NCBI RefSeq assembly: GCF_030817535.1
Contig: NZ_JAUSZL010000002.1
Location: 3,906,001-3,970,000, forward strand
Reading direction: 5' to 3'
Length of the DNA: 64,000 bases
DNA from: Streptomyces sp. V3I8
GTDB lineage: Bacteria; Actinomycetota; Actinomycetes; Streptomycetales; Streptomycetaceae
The notes beneath the pieces are model-generated. The model was not told the DNA's origin, did not search any database, and saw nothing but the letters and a program-made list of their open reading frames with translations. Made by a program: the position numbers and the translations under genes. Below, piece by piece: positions 36,959 to 44,764 of this stretch (its first letter is position 1; every line of letters starts with the position of its first letter).

Positions 36959-38077
36959 TCACCCCCGCCGCTGCGACCGCCACACCAAGAACACCGCGGA
37001 CGCCACGGCCGCTCCCCGCAGCACGACCGGCCAGGTCTCGGCGACGGCGTCCCCCATCGCCTTCTCGGCGATCGGCTCCCCCCACCGCCCCTCCGTACGC
37101 CCCCAGAGCCACACCACACCGGCCGAGGCGACCAGGCCGGGCACGAAGAAGACGGCCCACTTCGACTCGTTGGGGCTGAGGCGCCGCGAGAGGTAGGCGA
37201 TCAGCCAGCCGAGGCCCAGCATGACGAGGTTGCCGATGAAGGCGCCCGCCACGAGCAGCGCCGCGGCGAACAGCAGCAGGGGGTTGGCCCACCGTCCCCC
37301 GAAGCCCCGCAGCCGGGGCACGAAACGCCGGCGACGCCCGCCCGCCTCGACGGGCGGCACGGCCGGTTCCGCGACCGCGGCGACCGCCGCGACCGGCTTG
37401 CCCTCGGCCTCGGCGGCCCCACCGACCTTGCCGTCCTTGCCGACCTTGCCGTCCTTGCCGTCCTTGCGGTCCGCGTCGGGGCCGTCCTCCCCCGGCGGTG
37501 GCTCGAAGAGCTCCGGGATCTCCACGCCCCCGGTGAACCCCGGCACGCTGTCCATGGCACCGAACGGCCCGCTCTCCACCCGCCACCAGTCGGGCTGCAC
37601 CCCGGAGCCGAGCTCCTCCGTGCTCGCGAGGTGCGGCGGCGTGGGCGCGGCGTCGGCCTTCCCGGCGGTCTCCGGCTCCGCGGGACGCTGCCGGGGCACC
37701 ATGCGACGCATCCGCCCGGACCGCTCCCCGGACTCCTTGGACCCCCTGGACCCTTCAGAGCCCTTGGACCCCTTCTTCCGCTGCACGGGAAAGGCGGCCC
37801 GCGTGGACGCCGTCTCCTGCGCACCCCCGGTATCGGTGCCGGTATCGGTGCCGGTGCCGGCGGCAGTGACCACCGACTCGGGCGTACCGATGCGGTCGAG
37901 GATGCGGCGGACGGCGGCCGGGCTGTCGAAGGCCGCTCCGGCCCGCCGCCGGTCGATCTCGCCCCGCAGCTCCGACACGAGCCGCATACGCGTCCCGGAC
38001 GGCAGCTGTCTCTGCTGGGCCAGGTCGCCCACCCGGCTCAGATAGTCGAACACGAGCTGGTCGCTCTCGATCCCCAC
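36959..38077 (-). CDS. HAAS-type membrane protein
   Basis: 372 residues from GTG 38077, with GGAGGGG seven bases upstream. N-terminal helical domain (LVFDYLSRVGDLAQQRQLPS, LVSELRGEIDRRRAG, VRRILDRIGTPESVV) of the HAAS/DUF1700 signalling type. A long low-complexity linker with Lys/Asp/Gly repeats (KDGKDGKVGKDGKVGG) follows. The C-terminus has about four membrane helices (NPLLLFAAALLVAGAFIGNLVMLGLGWLI, WAVFFVPGLVASAGVVWLWG). Role unknown; likely a membrane sensor or anchor. Confidence 0.78.
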   Translation of the reverse strand: MGIESDQLVFDYLSRVGDLAQQRQLPSGTRMRLVSELRGEIDRRRAGAAFDSPAAVRRILDRIGTPESVVTAAGTGTDTGTDTGGAQETASTRAAFPVQRKKGSKGSEGSRGSKESGERSGRMRRMVPRQRPAEPETAGKADAAPTPPHLASTEELGSGVQPDWWRVESGPFGAMDSVPGFTGGVEIPELFEPPPGEDGPDADRKDGKDGKVGKDGKVGGAAEAEGKPVAAVAAVAEPAVPPVEAGGRRRRFVPRLRGFGGRWANPLLLFAAALLVAGAFIGNLVMLGLGWLIAYLSRRLSPNESKWAVFFVPGLVASAGVVWLWGRTEGRWGEPIAEKAMGDAVAETWPVVLRGAAVASAVFLVWRSQRRG

Positions 38078-38207
38078 GAAGTCCCCTCCGGGGCTCCCGC
38101 GTTGCAATTCCCCGCGCGGACGACGGTACCGCGCCCGCAGCCGGTGCCGGGCCCCGGCACGGCACCGGCGCGGGTCCCGGCGGGGGTCCTGGCAGGGGCC
38201 CACCCGC

Positions 38208-38213
38208 TACCGT
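38208..38213 (+). promoter_or_regulatory. -10 element of the helicase-associated gene
   Basis: TACCGT ends 7 bases before ATG 38221; leaderless layout, favouring 38221 over the GTG at 38212. Confidence 0.4.
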
Positions 38214-38220
38214 GGATCGG

Positions 38221-40830
38221 ATGAGCGTCCAGGAGCAGTCATCAGGGGAGCCCGCCGGGGCTTTTGACCGGGCCCCCGCCGAGGGGCCCGCCACCGCCGC
38301 GGCACACCCTCGTTCGCTCGCGGAGGACCTGCGGGCCCGCGACGACGACTCCCTGTCCGCGCTGCTGCGGGCCCGCCCCGACCTCATCACCCCCGTACCG
38401 ACGGACCTCACGCAGCTGGCCGCCCGGGCCGGTACCCGTGCCTCCGTGATCCGCGCCCTGGAGCGCCTGGACCGCTTCACGCTCCAGACGGCGGAGGCGC
38501 TGGCCGTGGCCCCGGACCCGGCCCCGTACGGCACGCTCCTGCACCTGCTGGCGGGCGACGCGGGCGACCCCGTGGTCACCGAGGTGCTCCCGCACGCGGT
38601 GGCCACCCTGCGCGAACAGGCGCTGGTGTGGGGCCCGGACGACCGGCTCCGCCTGGTGCGCACGGCCCGTGAACTGCTCACGCCCTCGCCGCAGCACCCG
38701 TCCCCGACGGGGCTCGGTCCGACGGTCGCGGAGGCCACGGCGGGCATGTCGCCGGGCCGGATCCAGGAACTGCTCACGGCGGCCGGACTGCCCACGACCC
38801 ACGACGCGGTGTCCGCGGTGGAGTCGCTCACGGGCCTCTTCGACGACCGCGCCCGGATGTCCGCCCTGCTCGACACGGCCCCGCCGGAGTCCCTGGAGGT
38901 CCTCTCACGGCTGGTCTGGGGGCCGCCCTACGGCCAGGTGACCGCCGAGCCGGCGGCCCGGCTGCGCTGGCTCCTGGACCGCGGACTGCTCCTGCCCACG
39001 GCGCCCGGCACGGTCGTACTCCCCCGGGAGGTCGCCCTCCACCTGCGCGCGGGGCGCGCGCACCGGCGGACGGAACCGCTGCCTCCGCCGGTCGAGCCCG
39101 GCGCCGTGCACCGTCCGCAGGTGGTGGACGCCACGGCGGCCGGCCAGGCGTACACCGCGCTCGCCACCGTCGAGGAGCTGCTGAAGGACTGGGACGAGGG
39201 CGGTCCGGCCGTGCTGCGCGCCGGCGGCCTGAGCGTACGGGACCTGAAGCGCACGGCCGTGGCCCTGGACGTACCGGAGCCGGTCGCCGCCTTCTGGATC
39301 GAACTCGCCTACGCGGCGGGCCTGCTGGCCTCGGACGGCGAGGCCGACGAGCGGTACGCGGTGACGCCCGCCCACGACGAGTGGCTGGACCTCCCGGCGG
39401 CCGAGCGCTGGACCCGGCTGGCCACGGCGTGGCTGTCGGCGACCCGCACGGCGGGCGTGATCGGCGGCCGGGACGCCAAGGACCGCACCCTGTCGGCGCT
39501 GGGCCCCGGGCTGGACCGCTCGGCCGCCCCGGAGGTCCGGCACCGGGTCCTGACGCTCCTCGCCGCGCTGCCCGAGGGCGGCACCGCGTCCCCCGACGCC
39601 CTCGTCGAACGCCTCCACTGGGAACGCGCCCTGCGCGGCGCGGCGTCCTCGGACGACCTGCGGGCCCGCCTCGCCCGGTGGACGCTCACCGAGGCCGAGT
39701 CGCTGGGCGTCACCGGCCGGGGCGCGCTGTCCGCGCACGGGCGCGCGCTCCTGGGCGCGGCGGCGCCGCCCGCGCCCGCCCCGGAGCCCGCCACCGGTCC
39801 CGGCGACAAGCTCCCCGTCCACCACCGGCACCACCACCTCCCGGCGCCCCCGCCCGAGCCCCGCTCCCCCGCCGAACTGGCCGCCGCGGCGGCCCGGGCG
39901 GGCAGGCTCCTCGCCCCGCTGCTCCCGGAACCCCTGGACCACGTCCTCCTCCAGGCGGACCTGACGGCGGTGGCCCCCGGCCCGCTGGAGCGGCCCCTCG
40001 CCGACGTGCTGAACGTGCTCGCGGACGTGGAGTCGAAGGGCGGGGCGACGGTGTACCGCTTCACGCCGGGCTCGGTCCGCCGGGCCCTGGACGCGGGCCG
40101 CTCGGCCTCCGACCTGCAGGCGTTCCTCGCCGCCCACTCCCGTACGCCGGTGCCGCAGCCGCTCGCCTACCTGATCGACGACGTGGCCCGCCGGCACGGC
40201 CACCTGCGGATCGGCGCGGCCTCGGCGTACGTGCGCTGCGACGACGACGCGCTGCTGAACGAGATCGTCGCCGACAAGCGGTCGCAGGGGCTGCGGCTGC
40301 GCCGGCTCGCACCGACGGTCCTGGCCGCCCAGGCCGATCCGGCCACGCTCCTCGAAGGCCTGCGGGCCATGGGTTTCGCACCGGCCGCCGAGTCCGCCGA
40401 GGGCGACGTGCTGATCACCCGCGCGCACGCCCGCCGCACGCCGCCGCGCAGGGCGCCCGAGCCGGTCCCCGACGGCCCCCCGGTCCCCGACGCGACCCTG
40501 CTGAGCGCCGCGATCCGGGCCGTCCGCGCGGGCGACCTCGCCTCCACGACACCGCGCAAGCCGTCCGCCGCCGCCCCCGGACCGGACGGCGGCCTCCCCC
40601 GCACCACGGCCGCCGAGACGCTGGCCACCATGCAGGCCGCCGTCCTGACCGGCAGCACCCTCTTGATCGGTTACGTCAACGCGGAGGGCTCCGCCAGCCA
40701 GCGCGTGATCGCCCCCGTCCGGGTCGAGGGCGGGTTCGTCACGGCGTACGACCACACCGCGGACGAGGTCCGTACCTACCCCCTGCACCGGGTGACGGGC
40801 GTGGCGGAACTGGCGGACGAGCAGGCCTGA
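38221..40830 (+). CDS. Helicase-associated domain protein (XPB partner)
   Basis: 869-residue protein related to the helicase-associated family found beside actinobacterial XPB genes (the Ssl2/XPB-like C-terminal region). No Walker A or DEAH box is present. The C-terminal part carries FRYTPGSVRRALDAGRSASDLQAFL-like and LLIGYVNAEGSASQRVIAPVRV segments (about 640-665 and 815-835), the latter a WYL-like beta domain. The middle has an alpha-helical region and a His-rich patch (about 540-550). It is probably a DNA-repair cofactor of the XPB helicase downstream. Family sure, mechanism inferred. Confidence 0.82.
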   Translation: MSVQEQSSGEPAGAFDRAPAEGPATAAAHPRSLAEDLRARDDDSLSALLRARPDLITPVPTDLTQLAARAGTRASVIRALERLDRFTLQTAEALAVAPDPAPYGTLLHLLAGDAGDPVVTEVLPHAVATLREQALVWGPDDRLRLVRTARELLTPSPQHPSPTGLGPTVAEATAGMSPGRIQELLTAAGLPTTHDAVSAVESLTGLFDDRARMSALLDTAPPESLEVLSRLVWGPPYGQVTAEPAARLRWLLDRGLLLPTAPGTVVLPREVALHLRAGRAHRRTEPLPPPVEPGAVHRPQVVDATAAGQAYTALATVEELLKDWDEGGPAVLRAGGLSVRDLKRTAVALDVPEPVAAFWIELAYAAGLLASDGEADERYAVTPAHDEWLDLPAAERWTRLATAWLSATRTAGVIGGRDAKDRTLSALGPGLDRSAAPEVRHRVLTLLAALPEGGTASPDALVERLHWERALRGAASSDDLRARLARWTLTEAESLGVTGRGALSAHGRALLGAAAPPAPAPEPATGPGDKLPVHHRHHHLPAPPPEPRSPAELAAAAARAGRLLAPLLPEPLDHVLLQADLTAVAPGPLERPLADVLNVLADVESKGGATVYRFTPGSVRRALDAGRSASDLQAFLAAHSRTPVPQPLAYLIDDVARRHGHLRIGAASAYVRCDDDALLNEIVADKRSQGLRLRRLAPTVLAAQADPATLLEGLRAMGFAPAAESAEGDVLITRAHARRTPPRRAPEPVPDGPPVPDATLLSAAIRAVRAGDLASTTPRKPSAAAPGPDGGLPRTTAAETLATMQAAVLTGSTLLIGYVNAEGSASQRVIAPVRVEGGFVTAYDHTADEVRTYPLHRVTGVAELADEQA

Positions 40831-41044: not shown

Positions 41045-41161
41045 ATGCGTACTGCCCGTCGTGTCGCCACCGTCCTGATCGGCACCGCCGCACTGCTCGG
41101 GGCACTCGCGTCCCAGGCCGCGGCGATCGGCATCGATCTCGGCGGGGGCCTGACGCTCTGA
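41045..41161 (+). CDS. 38-residue exported peptide
   Basis: Starts at ATG 41045 with AGAGGAAA seven bases upstream. A full signal peptide (MRTARRVATVLIGTAALLGALASQAAA) leaves a mature peptide of about 11 residues, IGIDLGGGLTL. Too small for most gene finders. Codon third positions and ribosome-binding site support expression. It may be a signal, toxin or surface peptide; no family recognised. It lies in the block between the two XPB-related genes. Confidence 0.6.
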   Translation: MRTARRVATVLIGTAALLGALASQAAAIGIDLGGGLTL

Positions 41162-41288: not shown

Positions 41289-41624
41289 ATGGGTTCCGTG
41301 AGTCCGCCGAGTCCGTTGAGTCCGCCGAGTCCCGTCCGGCCCTTGCACACCGCCATCACCCTCGCCATCACCATCGCCCTCGCGGTCGCGGCCGTCGTCT
41401 CGGCGGCGCTCATCGGCATACTCGCCCCCCGGGCCGTCGCAGCCCAGGCCGTCGCAGCTCAGGCCGGGCAGGCCCCCCAGGCCCCCCAGGCCCTCCGGTC
41501 CGTGCGGGGCGCCCTGCCGCTGCCGCTGCCGCTGCCGGTGGCCGGCGTCGAGCCGATCGTGAGCGAGGGGGTGACGATCGAGGGGCCGTTGATCAACAAC
41601 GTCACTCTGCCCATGCTGAGGTAG
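41289..41624 (+). CDS. Small secreted or single-pass membrane protein
   Basis: 111 residues with an N-terminal Pro/Ser stretch, one strong hydrophobic segment (AITLAITIALAVAAVVSAALIGIL), Ala/Gln repeats (AVAAQAVAAQAGQAPQAPQA), a Leu-Pro run (LPLPLPLPV) and a C-terminal hydrophobic EPIVSEGVTIEGPLINNV. It resembles no known family. The stop overlaps the end of the convergent fusion gene by 23 bases. Low complexity makes the call tentative. Confidence 0.5.
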   Translation: MGSVSPPSPLSPPSPVRPLHTAITLAITIALAVAAVVSAALIGILAPRAVAAQAVAAQAGQAPQAPQALRSVRGALPLPLPLPVAGVEPIVSEGVTIEGPLINNVTLPMLR

Positions 41625-42885
41625 TCCGGCGCAGGCGGTAGCTGTCGCCTTCGAGGCGGACGATCTCCGCGTGGTGGGCGAGCCGGTCGACCGTCGCGGG
41701 GGCGGCGGCGCCGAAGACCTCGTCCCAGCGGCCGAGGGGGCGGTCGGTGGTCGCGATCAGGGAGGCCCGCTCGTAGCGGTGCGCGACCAGCTGGAAGAAG
41801 AGCTGGGCGGTGTCCGGGTCGAAGGGGGTGTAGCCGATCTCGTCGATGATCAGGAGGGGATGGGCGTCGAGGGCGGCCAGTTCGTCGGCGAGGCGGCCGG
41901 CCGCGCGGGCCTCGGTGAGCCGCGCGGCCCACTGCGCCGCGGTCGCGAACAGCACCTGGTGCCCCGCCTGGCAGGCCCGCACGCCGAGGCCGACGGCGAG
42001 GTGCGTCTTGCCGGTGCCGGGCGGCCCGACGAAGACGACGTTGCGCCTGGCGGCGACGAAGTCCAGCTTCCCGAGCCGGGCCACGGCCTCCCGGTCGAAG
42101 AGTCGGGGGTGCTCCTCGTCGAACTCCTCCAGCAGCTTCCTGGCGGGGAACCGGGCGTCACGGATCCGGGCCTCGGCACCGGCCTCGTACGGGGAGGAGG
42201 TCGCCTGAACCGGAATCGGGACCGACCGGGACTGGGGCTGGTGCTGGAGCTGCGGCTGCGGCTGCGGTGGGGAGAACTCGGTCGGGACGGTCGACGCGGA
42301 GGGCTCCGCCACGGCCCTGTGCGAGCGATCCCCCTGCGCCGCCATCGGCCCCGACATGTACGCCAGGATCGCCGCCGAGGCGATGAACGCCATGTGGATC
42401 ACCGTCCCCCACAGCAGCGAGTGGTGCGAGGTGTGGTGCACGTCGACGAACATCTGGAGGAGATGCACGGACGAGATGCCCACGATGGCCGTGGCGAGCT
42501 TGACCTTCAGCACGTTGGAGTTGACGTGCGAGAGCCACTCCGGCTGGTCCCGGTGGCCCTGCAGACCGATGCGCGAGACGAACGTCTCGTAGCCGCCGAC
42601 GATCACCATGATCAGCAGGTTGGCGATCATGACGACGTCGACCAGTTTGAGCACCGCGAGCATCACGTACGTCTCGTTCGCCTGCCCGGTCACGCACCGG
42701 AGGATTAAATTCCACAACTCGTAGAAGAACTTGTAGACGTACACGCCCTGCGCGGCCACCAGGCCGAAGTACAGCGGGGCCTGGAGCCAGCGGGTGGCGA
42801 AGAGCGCGTATCCGAGCGTCGTGGTCGGCTGTGAGGCGGCGGGCGGCGGCACGGCGGACGGCGGGGCATGGCGGTGACCGGACAA
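41602..42885 (-). CDS. UPF0114 membrane protein fused to IstB-like AAA+ ATPase
   Basis: 427 residues from a TTG at 42885 with GGGAGA upstream; no earlier in-frame start exists. Residues ~20-180 are a UPF0114/YqhA-type membrane domain with four helices (FGLVAAQGVYVYKFFYELWNL, MLAVLKLVDVVMIANLLIMVIVGGYETFV, KLATAIVGISSVHLLQM, GTVIHMAFIASAAILAYMSG). After a Pro/Gln linker (190-235) comes an IstB-like ATPase: Walker A GPPGTGKT (287-294), LLIIDEIGYTPFD (Walker B 344-349), sensor LIATTDRPLG and YRLRR near the end. IstB helpers normally act with an IS21 transposase, but no istA is near. The N-terminal ~50 residues of a free IstB are missing. Divergent from XPB. Confidence 0.85.
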   Translation of the reverse strand: MSGHRHAPPSAVPPPAASQPTTTLGYALFATRWLQAPLYFGLVAAQGVYVYKFFYELWNLILRCVTGQANETYVMLAVLKLVDVVMIANLLIMVIVGGYETFVSRIGLQGHRDQPEWLSHVNSNVLKVKLATAIVGISSVHLLQMFVDVHHTSHHSLLWGTVIHMAFIASAAILAYMSGPMAAQGDRSHRAVAEPSASTVPTEFSPPQPQPQLQHQPQSRSVPIPVQATSSPYEAGAEARIRDARFPARKLLEEFDEEHPRLFDREAVARLGKLDFVAARRNVVFVGPPGTGKTHLAVGLGVRACQAGHQVLFATAAQWAARLTEARAAGRLADELAALDAHPLLIIDEIGYTPFDPDTAQLFFQLVAHRYERASLIATTDRPLGRWDEVFGAAAPATVDRLAHHAEIVRLEGDSYRLRRTTSAWAE

Positions 42886-43120: not shown

Positions 43121-44764
43121 GTGAATGGTCCACTCATCGTCCAGTCCGACAAAACCCTGCTCCTGGAGGTCGACCACGAGCTGGCCGACGAGTGCCGCCG
43201 GGTCATCGCGCCCTTCGCGGAGCTGGAGCGCGCGCCCGAGCACATCCACACCTACCGGGTGACCCCGCTCGGACTCTGGAACGCGCGCGCGGCGGGACAC
43301 GACGCCGAGCAGGTCGTGGACGCGCTCGTGCAGTACAGCCGCTACCCGGTGCCGCACGCGCTGCTGGTCGACATCGCGGAGACGATGGGCCGCTACGGCC
43401 GGCTGACGCTGAGCAAGCACCCGGCCCACGGACTCGTCCTGACCACCACCGACCGGCCCGTGCTGGAGGAGATCCTGCGCTCGAAGCGGATCACCCCGCT
43501 CGTGGGCAACCGGCTCGACGCGGACACCGTGGCCGTGCACCCCTCCGAGCGCGGCCAGATCAAGCAGACGCTGCTGAAGCTGGGCTGGCCGGCCGAGGAC
43601 CTCGCCGGGTACGTGGACGGGGAGGCGCACCCCATCGGGCTCGCCGAGGAGGGCTGGTCCCTGCGGCCGTACCAGAAGCAGGCCGTGGAGAACTTCTGGC
43701 ACGGCGGGTCCGGTGTGGTCGTGCTCCCCTGCGGCGCCGGCAAGACGCTGGTCGGGGCGGGGGCCATGGCGGAGGCGAAGGCCACCACCCTCATCCTCGT
43801 CACGAACACCGTCTCGGCCCGGCAGTGGAAGCACGAGCTGGTCAAGCGCACGAGTCTGACCGAGGAGGAGATCGGCGAGTACAGCGGTACGCGCAAGGAG
43901 ATCCGGCCGGTCACCATCGCGACGTACCAGGTGCTGACGACCCGGCGGAAGGGCGTCTACCCGCACCTGGAGCTGTTCGACTCCCGCGACTGGGGGCTGA
44001 TCATCTACGACGAGGTGCACCTGCTGCCCGCGCCGGTCTTCAAGTTCACCGCCGACCTCCAGGCGCGCCGCCGCCTCGGGCTGACGGCCACGCTGGTGCG
44101 CGAGGACGGCCGCGAGTCGGACGTGTTCTCGCTCATCGGGCCGAAGCGGTTCGACGCGCCCTGGAAGGAGATCGAGGCGCAGGGGTACATCGCGCCGGCC
44201 GACTGCGTCGAGGTCCGGGTGAACCTCACGGACTCCGAGCGGCTCGCGTACGCGACCGCCGAGGCGGAGGAGAAGTACCGGTTCTGCGCGACGACGGCGA
44301 CGAAACGCAAGGTCACGGAGGCGCTGGTCCGCCGGTTCGCGGGGATGCAGACGCTCGTCATCGGCCAGTACATCGACCAGCTCGACGAACTGGGCGAGCA
44401 CCTGGACGCGCCGGTCATCAAGGGCGAGACGTCGAACGCGCAGCGGGAGAAGCTCTTCGAGGCGTTCCGGCAGGGGGAGATCAATGTCCTGGTGGTCTCC
44501 AAGGTCGCGAACTTCTCCATCGACCTGCCGGAGGCGACGGTCGCCATCCAGGTGTCGGGCACCTTCGGCTCCCGCCAGGAGGAGGCCCAGCGTCTCGGCC
44601 GGGTGCTGCGCCCGAAGGCGGACGGCCACCAGGCCCACTTCTACTCGGTCGTGGCGCGCGACACCATCGACCAGGACTTCGCGGCGCACCGCCAGCGGTT
44701 CCTGGCCGAGCAGGGCTACGCGTACCGAATCGTGGACGCGGACGAGCTGCTGGCCGACAGCTAG
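43121..44764 (+). CDS. XPB-type DNA repair helicase
   Basis: 547-residue superfamily-2 helicase of the bacterial XPB group. An N-terminal damage-recognition-like domain (to ~180) is followed by RPYQKQAVENFW (Q motif), LPCGAGKT (motif I), IIYDEVHLLPA (motif II, DEVH) and LGLTATLVREDGRE (motif III with RED). Motifs V and VI are SKVANFSIDLPEA and SRQEEAQRLGRVLRPK. It unwinds DNA 3' to 5', and nucleotide excision repair is likely. GTG start with AGAAGGGG about 9 bases upstream. Normally adjacent to the helicase-associated gene, here separated by three accessory genes. Confidence 0.93.
   Translation: MNGPLIVQSDKTLLLEVDHELADECRRVIAPFAELERAPEHIHTYRVTPLGLWNARAAGHDAEQVVDALVQYSRYPVPHALLVDIAETMGRYGRLTLSKHPAHGLVLTTTDRPVLEEILRSKRITPLVGNRLDADTVAVHPSERGQIKQTLLKLGWPAEDLAGYVDGEAHPIGLAEEGWSLRPYQKQAVENFWHGGSGVVVLPCGAGKTLVGAGAMAEAKATTLILVTNTVSARQWKHELVKRTSLTEEEIGEYSGTRKEIRPVTIATYQVLTTRRKGVYPHLELFDSRDWGLIIYDEVHLLPAPVFKFTADLQARRRLGLTATLVREDGRESDVFSLIGPKRFDAPWKEIEAQGYIAPADCVEVRVNLTDSERLAYATAEAEEKYRFCATTATKRKVTEALVRRFAGMQTLVIGQYIDQLDELGEHLDAPVIKGETSNAQREKLFEAFRQGEINVLVVSKVANFSIDLPEATVAIQVSGTFGSRQEEAQRLGRVLRPKADGHQAHFYSVVARDTIDQDFAAHRQRFLAEQGYAYRIVDADELLADS

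Follow-up and report, generated by a model that had tools for sequence, protein, structure and literature searches.

In Streptomyces sp. V3I8, a membrane domain of the UPF0114 family and the ATPase module of IstB, the transposition helper of IS21 elements, are joined in a single protein, and this UPF0114–IstB fusion is confirmed as a real gene with one open frame. The gene lies in a window of 64,000 nucleotides of contig NZ_JAUSZL010000002.1, the whole stretch of DNA analysed here, where it was first picked out by a sequence-only reading as a candidate domesticated ATPase (Table 1). Among the loci examined, the fusion is confined to part of the genus Streptomyces. Domestication has good support: the same pair recurs in many species, trees of both domains are compatible with a single origin, both domains are under purifying selection, the ATPase residues are kept, and no tie to istA is apparent. 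We put at about an even chance the fuller account, in which a single-origin domestication gave rise to a nucleotide switch tethered to the membrane and acting together with UPF0114.

Table 1. Positions of the fusion gene, its parts and its neighbours in the window
Feature	Position	Strand	Basis or remark
UPF0114–IstB fusion gene, 427 aa, TTG start	41602..42885	-	single ORF
UPF0114 (YqhA/TIGR00645) domain, residues 28–146	42448..42804	-	Pfam match
Four predicted helices of the fusion, residues 22–190	42316–42822	-	AlphaFold model
Pro/Gln-rich linker, residues 193–234	42184..42309	-	pLDDT <50
IstB-type AAA+ domain without the IstB N-terminal domain, residues 235–422	41620..42183	-	
Walker A GPPGTGKT, residues 287–294 (K293, T294)	42004..42027	-	
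Walker B LLIIDE, residues 344–349 (D348, E349), then switch tyrosine Y352 (IstB Y170)	41839..41856	-	
Sensor I position Asp381 (= Asn199 in IS5376 IstB)	41743..41745	-	
Arg401 of the DRL motif	41683..41685	-	51/51 fusions
Sensor II Arg417 (IstB R237)	41635..41637	-	
XPB-type DNA repair helicase, divergent upstream neighbour	43121..44764	+	genomic context; no part in the system is proposed for it
Helicase_C_3 + WYL protein, convergent downstream neighbour	38212..40830	+	

Pfam, NCBIfam and AlphaFold agree that a UPF0114 domain, a linker and an IstB ATPase follow one another in this frame, which occupies exactly the interval first proposed, and the Walker A and B motifs are intact, as had been claimed. 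Pfam UPF0114 (PF03350) matches over its entire profile (residues 28–146, profile 1–117 of 117, E 3.5e-36, 124.4 bits against a cut-off of 23.1), and TIGR00645 over profile positions 7–157 of 167 (174.4 bits, cut-off 144.4). The C-terminal part is matched by Pfam IstB_IS21 (PF01695) at residues 239–422 (profile 51–236 of 238, E 1e-54, 186 bits against 24.1) and by the IS21 helper model NF038214, which scores 216.5 bits against a cut-off of 200 and starts at profile position 47 of 232. The earlier description of a nearly complete IstB thus stands for the AAA+ domain and falls for the IstB N-terminal domain, which is absent—the Pfam match begins only at position 51—and in whose place stand UPF0114 and the linker. 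One detail of the gene is uncertain, namely its start codon: a database entry for this protein (P0001, 416 aa) begins at residue 12 of the ORF.

Structure prediction gives a concordant picture of the separate parts. Long helices at residues 22–66, 71–105, 117–147 and 154–190 make up the four-helix domain, modelled with a pLDDT of 82.6, and are followed by a disordered, low-confidence stretch at 193–234 and then by the AAA+ domain. The full-length model is moderate (mean pLDDT 68, pTM 0.47), which makes the arrangement of its parts relative to one another unreliable. A Foldseek search returned four matches with E <0.001, all of them IstB chains, with DnaA, DnaC and Hda next; in fold alignment the AAA+ part is 36–39% identical to IS5376 IstB (PDB 8q3w, 8q4d, 5bq5). 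PDB sequence matches cover the AAA+ part alone, and the fold search with the UPF0114 domain gave no convincing match.

The same domain pair is found in other genomes. In a sample of 392 Streptomyces genomes, a UPF0114 match (threshold E 1e-15) occurs in 59, and 55 carry the fusion: both domains are seen in 53 of these (52 loci with both domains, plus genome G001), and a contig end cuts the gene in the other two (G032 and G081). The domains share one frame at 51 of the 52 loci, the remaining one (L094) having a frame break. The four further genomes with UPF0114 comprise three in which no IstB was seen in the fetched region (G012, G375 and G433) and one, G464, with a 39-residue UPF0114 remnant; 337 of the 392 are not counted as carriers. 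G495, which has a fusion (among L106 and L124) and a standalone UPF0114 copy besides, offers a natural control. GTDB species representatives, a sample that overlaps the first, yielded 295 relatives, and the best 80 of these 295 are all Streptomyces loci with both domains in one frame. Across a class-wide sample of 394 genomes, UPF0114 was detected in 52, six of which are Streptomyces, and all six have the fusion; for the other 46 genomes, 24 loci were examined and none of them has IstB beside UPF0114, within at most 1.5 kb on each side (484 bases downstream for L144). G174, from another genus of the same family, has a partial UPF0114 match at positions 81–117. Standalone UPF0114 genes and IS21 IstB genes both occur in Streptomyces, so that an assembly join or a recent local deletion could in principle have fused two unrelated genes; such an artefact is refuted by the conserved relatives, since the same pair is kept across many species with both domains under selection, and we leave it a vanishingly small probability.

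A single fusion event is the simplest reading of the phylogeny. The UPF0114 parts of 52/52 fusions fall into one clade, which includes one standalone protein (P0132) and adjoins standalone Streptomyces proteins, with a support of 89/90 that lies below the tool's starred level. A single branch separates the fused IstB domains from 49 IS21 IstB proteins (99/97, no outgroup; 64 rows, of which 14 are incomplete or shorter database entries nested among the fusions). With IS5376 IstB as outgroup, a tree of 50 fused rows and 14 of those 49 IS21 proteins again unites the fusions in one clade (99/96). The database protein lists used were the best 120 of 3468, the best 120 of 8000 and the best 120 of 7987. 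Two loci, L050 and L055, have IstB parts that stand apart in the IstB tree and UPF0114 parts that fall among rows from the XPB site, the commonest genomic setting described below. A second fusion event was considered for them and set aside, because constraining their IstB parts into the XPB-site group was not rejected (p-AU 0.38). We read their placement, short of proof, as rapid divergence once the Walker B glutamate had been lost; an exchange of the IstB part is a less favoured possibility.

Selection has acted unequally along the protein. Among the fusions, UPF0114 has a median pairwise dN/dS of 0.085, the linker one of 0.81 and IstB one of 0.35 (1224, 1221 and 1223, respectively, of 1275 pairs, which are not independent of one another), the IstB value being about four times that of UPF0114, whose alignment holds 65 invariant columns across 68 rows including the source protein. 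The linker, for which conservation had been suggested as a check, is not conserved: its length in relatives runs from 40 to 172 aa, with dN/dS ~0.8. In the alignment of 51 fusions, K111, T112, D166, R221 and R237 (IS5376 numbering) are kept in every protein, the switch tyrosine Y170 in 50 and the Walker B glutamate E167 in 49, the exceptions being L050 and L055, which have alanine there in otherwise open frames; the Walker B DE pair is present in 80 of 80 named loci. The sequence-only reading had held that loss of ATPase residues in relatives would count against it, and this check did not refute it, two relatives apart. The residues are kept nearly throughout, but the Walker B glutamate is gone from L050 and L055, which suggests that at least one lineage can do without catalysis.

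These figures bear directly on whether the ATPase matters at all, since UPF0114 might be the functional part and the IstB piece a tolerated, or merely stabilising, tail. Such a passenger would accommodate the higher dN/dS of the IstB part and the missing glutamate of L050 and L055, as well as P0132—another natural control—which groups with the fusions and has no IstB domain, and the remnant in G464, which implies that the gene can be lost. What would not be expected of a tolerated tail is a dN/dS of 0.35 beside a linker at 0.81, or a Walker A lysine, Walker B aspartate and sensor II arginine preserved in 51/51 proteins, and we judge the passenger explanation distinctly unlikely.

The changes relative to IS21 IstB give some indication of what the ATPase no longer does. 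According to passages of one study of IstB, the N-terminal domain dimerises the protein, prevents contiguous oligomers and helps to dock IstA, the docking cleft being formed with this domain; on its own, the ATPase module does not suffice for contact with IstA (PMC11208146). The same passages report that the isolated AAA+ module binds DNA at 1.5 uM and that basic residues of the N-terminal domain partly explain a 30-fold higher DNA affinity. Not only is this domain missing from the fusion, but the charge of the remaining module has also shifted: over the aligned stretch, net charge averages -2.4 (SD 2.2) in 51 fusions versus +1.9 (SD 0.9) in 49 IS21 proteins. Position 82 is acidic in 50/51 fusions and basic in most IS21 proteins (IS5376 IstB itself has Asp), position 158 has gone from Gly/Ala to Asp in 51/51, and position 232 from Lys to Asp/Glu in 49/51; shifts in the opposite direction are seen at positions 88, 91, 145 and 230, which became basic. 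At sensor I, where 49/49 IS21 IstB proteins have Asn, the fusions have Asp in 44 of 51, Asn in five, Ser in one and Glu in one, the Asn and Ser cases all belonging to loci away from the XPB site and the Glu to L045. On balance, these sequence differences appear to lead away from transposition and DNA bending.

They likewise weigh on the idea of a DNA–membrane tether, in which the AAA+ module would coat or bend DNA as IstB does while UPF0114 anchors the nucleoprotein, perhaps close to a repair helicase or to the nucleoid. The stretch expected to hold the initiator-specific motif, part of the IstB DNA contact, aligns without gaps, an observation at the level of the alignment only, and the DNA binding of the isolated IstB module fits such a role. 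Against this, the AAA+ domain of the fusion has lost its net positive charge, and the N-terminal domain that contributes to the higher affinity is absent. The genomic setting cuts both ways too: an XPB helicase gene is present in the fetched locus for 59 of 80 named loci, yet this neighbourhood is not obligatory, as the two helicase-related genes are both unseen at 14 of 52 loci. Taken with these objections, the tether seems to us unlikely.

The XPB site is the most frequent setting of the gene. At 38 of the 52 loci the fusion sits beside XPB on the opposite strand, nearly always between XPB and the Helicase_C_3/WYL gene; XPB itself is present in 61/61 Streptomyces searched, and in four fusion-free loci (L130–L133) the two helicase-related genes are adjacent, with approximately 80, 150, 810 and 820 bases between them. 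A functional link with the XPB locus is not supported, because neither helicase-related gene is seen at the 14 other loci, among which L126 extends for 347 bases on one side and L108 for 3.7 kb. In 34/38 XPB-site loci, both domains show distances that track those of XPB and its partner (Mantel r 0.47–0.50, p 0.002), which fits ordinary inheritance there. The 14 remaining loci are distributed over three contexts that recur and several that do not. For instance, L048, L056, L119 and L125 have in common a second site beside OsmC and MarR-type genes, and it is here, at L125, that the UPF0114 remnant of G464 lies. Ten flanking proteins from seven of the non-XPB loci comprise dehydrogenases, MarR and ROK regulators, a histidine kinase, MscS, OsmC and a PA14/fn3 protein, and among them there is no partner common to all non-XPB contexts. 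At the one alternative site checked in the source genome, ~1 kb separates the flanks where ~3.6 kb would be expected, which leaves this place without the fusion and the two genes around it.

Several further observations concern the surroundings of the gene at the XPB site. At L128, unlike the other XPB-site loci, ~4.5 kb separate the fusion from XPB. The interval from the Helicase_C_3/WYL gene to the fusion contains two small plus-strand ORFs (41046–41161 and 41289–41624), whose N termini both resemble signal peptides by eye, making secreted peptides a possible product. The second of them overlaps the 3' end of the fusion by 23 bases and has tblastn matches in 28/38 XPB-site loci and 0/14 others, its relatives often ending in an EGPLINN-LTLP-like motif; similar tiny ORFs were noted by eye in L242, an XPB site without the fusion. 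A minus-strand ORF of 414 aa beside the helicase genes (36959–38203) has no NCBIfam match and a C-terminal part that appears membrane-like by eye, and it is matched in 35/38 XPB-site loci and in L130–L133.

The absence of istA near the gene, part of the original claim, extends to the whole genome: no IS21 transposase (NF033546) exceeds the cut-off in the source genome, which has two partial matches below it, and the neighbours are helicase-related genes. A search for generic inverted repeats between 40800 and 43200 gave 11 pairs, none of them bracketing the gene. Across the 392 genomes, an IS21 transposase match (threshold E 1e-45, best five candidates per genome scored) is about as frequent among carriers (18 of 55) as among the remaining genomes (108 of 337; odds ratio 1.03, p=1.0), and a separate search of 23 carrier genomes found eight with an IS21 transposase over the family cut-off. 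With no association between the two, neither dependence on IS21 nor protection from it is supported. The same counts argue against a regulator or inhibitor acting in trans on IstA or IstB. Co-assembly with IS21 IstB is conceivable given the kept catalytic residues, but the fusion and istA are distributed independently, the docking cleft for IstA is built with the missing N-terminal domain (passages of PMC11208146), and the source genome offers no transposase over the cut-off to regulate; we hold this role to be highly improbable.

The best-supported reading is that the fusion would couple nucleotide state to the membrane module. A Streptomyces ancestor would have joined a standalone UPF0114 membrane protein, probably once, to the AAA+ module of an IS21 IstB, and the product would now be a host gene. 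The four helices would anchor it in the membrane and leave the AAA+ module in the cytosol on a flexible linker. This placement is predicted from the even number of helices and from the greater number of Lys/Arg residues at the N terminus, second loop and C-terminal side (1, 3 and 3, versus 1 and 0 in the other two loops), and the argument is weak, as acidic residues in the second loop equal the basic ones. With its Walker, switch-tyrosine, DRL-arginine and sensor II residues kept, the module can be expected still to bind ATP and to assemble through its AAA+ faces, the DRL arginine being by our own assignment the probable arginine finger. In the absence of the N-terminal dimerisation domain, the inverted-dimer decamer that docks IstA is no longer expected, and the lower positive charge leads us to expect weaker DNA binding. 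Unforced into inverted dimers, the AAA+ part could assemble contiguously beneath the membrane, as passages of PMC11208146 describe for TnsC and MuB.

Sensor I may set the pace of such a cycle. The change from Asn to Asp recalls DnaA, whose aspartate is linked to tight binding of ATP and ADP: passages of PMC5742627 place Asp269 at sensor 1 and credit the sensor 1 motif with contributing to a very high nucleotide affinity. By analogy, the fused ATPase may be a nucleotide switch that turns over slowly. If its tethered modules assemble with ATP, they could then cluster or gate the UPF0114 membrane module. We infer topology, assembly, switch behaviour and action on UPF0114 alike, and the most specific proposal, that assembly released from the inverted-dimer constraint and slowed by the DnaA-like aspartate opens, closes or clusters a channel-like UPF0114 complex, is a tentative one that may well prove wrong. 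The new function first proposed for the domesticated IstB is likewise an inference.

Comparison with known systems helps to delimit what is novel. IS21 IstB and the fusion have in common Walker A and B, the switch tyrosine and the sensor II arginine; the fusion differs in having no N-terminal dimerisation domain, a membrane domain in its stead, mostly Asp at sensor I and a negative net charge, and in occurring in the source genome as one full copy with no istA over the cut-off. With UPF0114/YqhA/TIGR00645 proteins it shares the full-length domain and four predicted helices, to which it adds a C-terminal AAA+ module. DnaA has the same Asp at sensor I in an AAA+ fold of the same broad group, but belongs to a different family, in which domain IV binds DNA and the membrane is contacted by no more than a peripheral helix; the analogy is a functional one only. 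Plant NLR receptors of L. usitatissimum and M. truncatula, according to passages of PMC4759884, combine UPF0114 with a nucleotide-binding receptor in one protein; these come from another kingdom and involve another NTPase, with no sign of common origin with the fusion.

The literature on UPF0114 is sparse, and the passages available to us contain no established function or activity. For example, yqhA was among 20 genes whose overexpression allowed E. coli to grow at 6 mM peroxide (passages of PMC8228696), a database once assigned a possible chloride domain to the family (PMC3246468, in part), and a study of fluoride exposure has UPF0114 among its tabulated genes (PMC10100675, in part). Our literature search, outside which most subscription papers lie, found no published description of the UPF0114 and IstB pair. 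The fusion proteins themselves are already in public databases under automatic names, and among the best 120 of 3468 matches many bear the label 'IS21-like element helper ATPase IstB', with the consequence that apparent host genes are counted as mobile elements. The PADLOC model PDLC02630 (DrmD) also matches the IstB AAA+ region (E 2.9e-41). We do not take this match as evidence of a role in defence; IstB-type ATPases might instead be miscalled as DISARM parts.

To our knowledge, domesticated transposon ATPases are rarely documented. The fusion adds a case with a known host range, descended from a family whose structures are solved, in which retained and lost features can be followed residue by residue. 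Both bacteria and plants have UPF0114, and its natural fusion to a well-understood ATPase provides a testable handle on this family. If nucleotide-driven assembly does act on the membrane module, the fusion would represent a new type of AAA+-gated membrane protein and a first handle on UPF0114.
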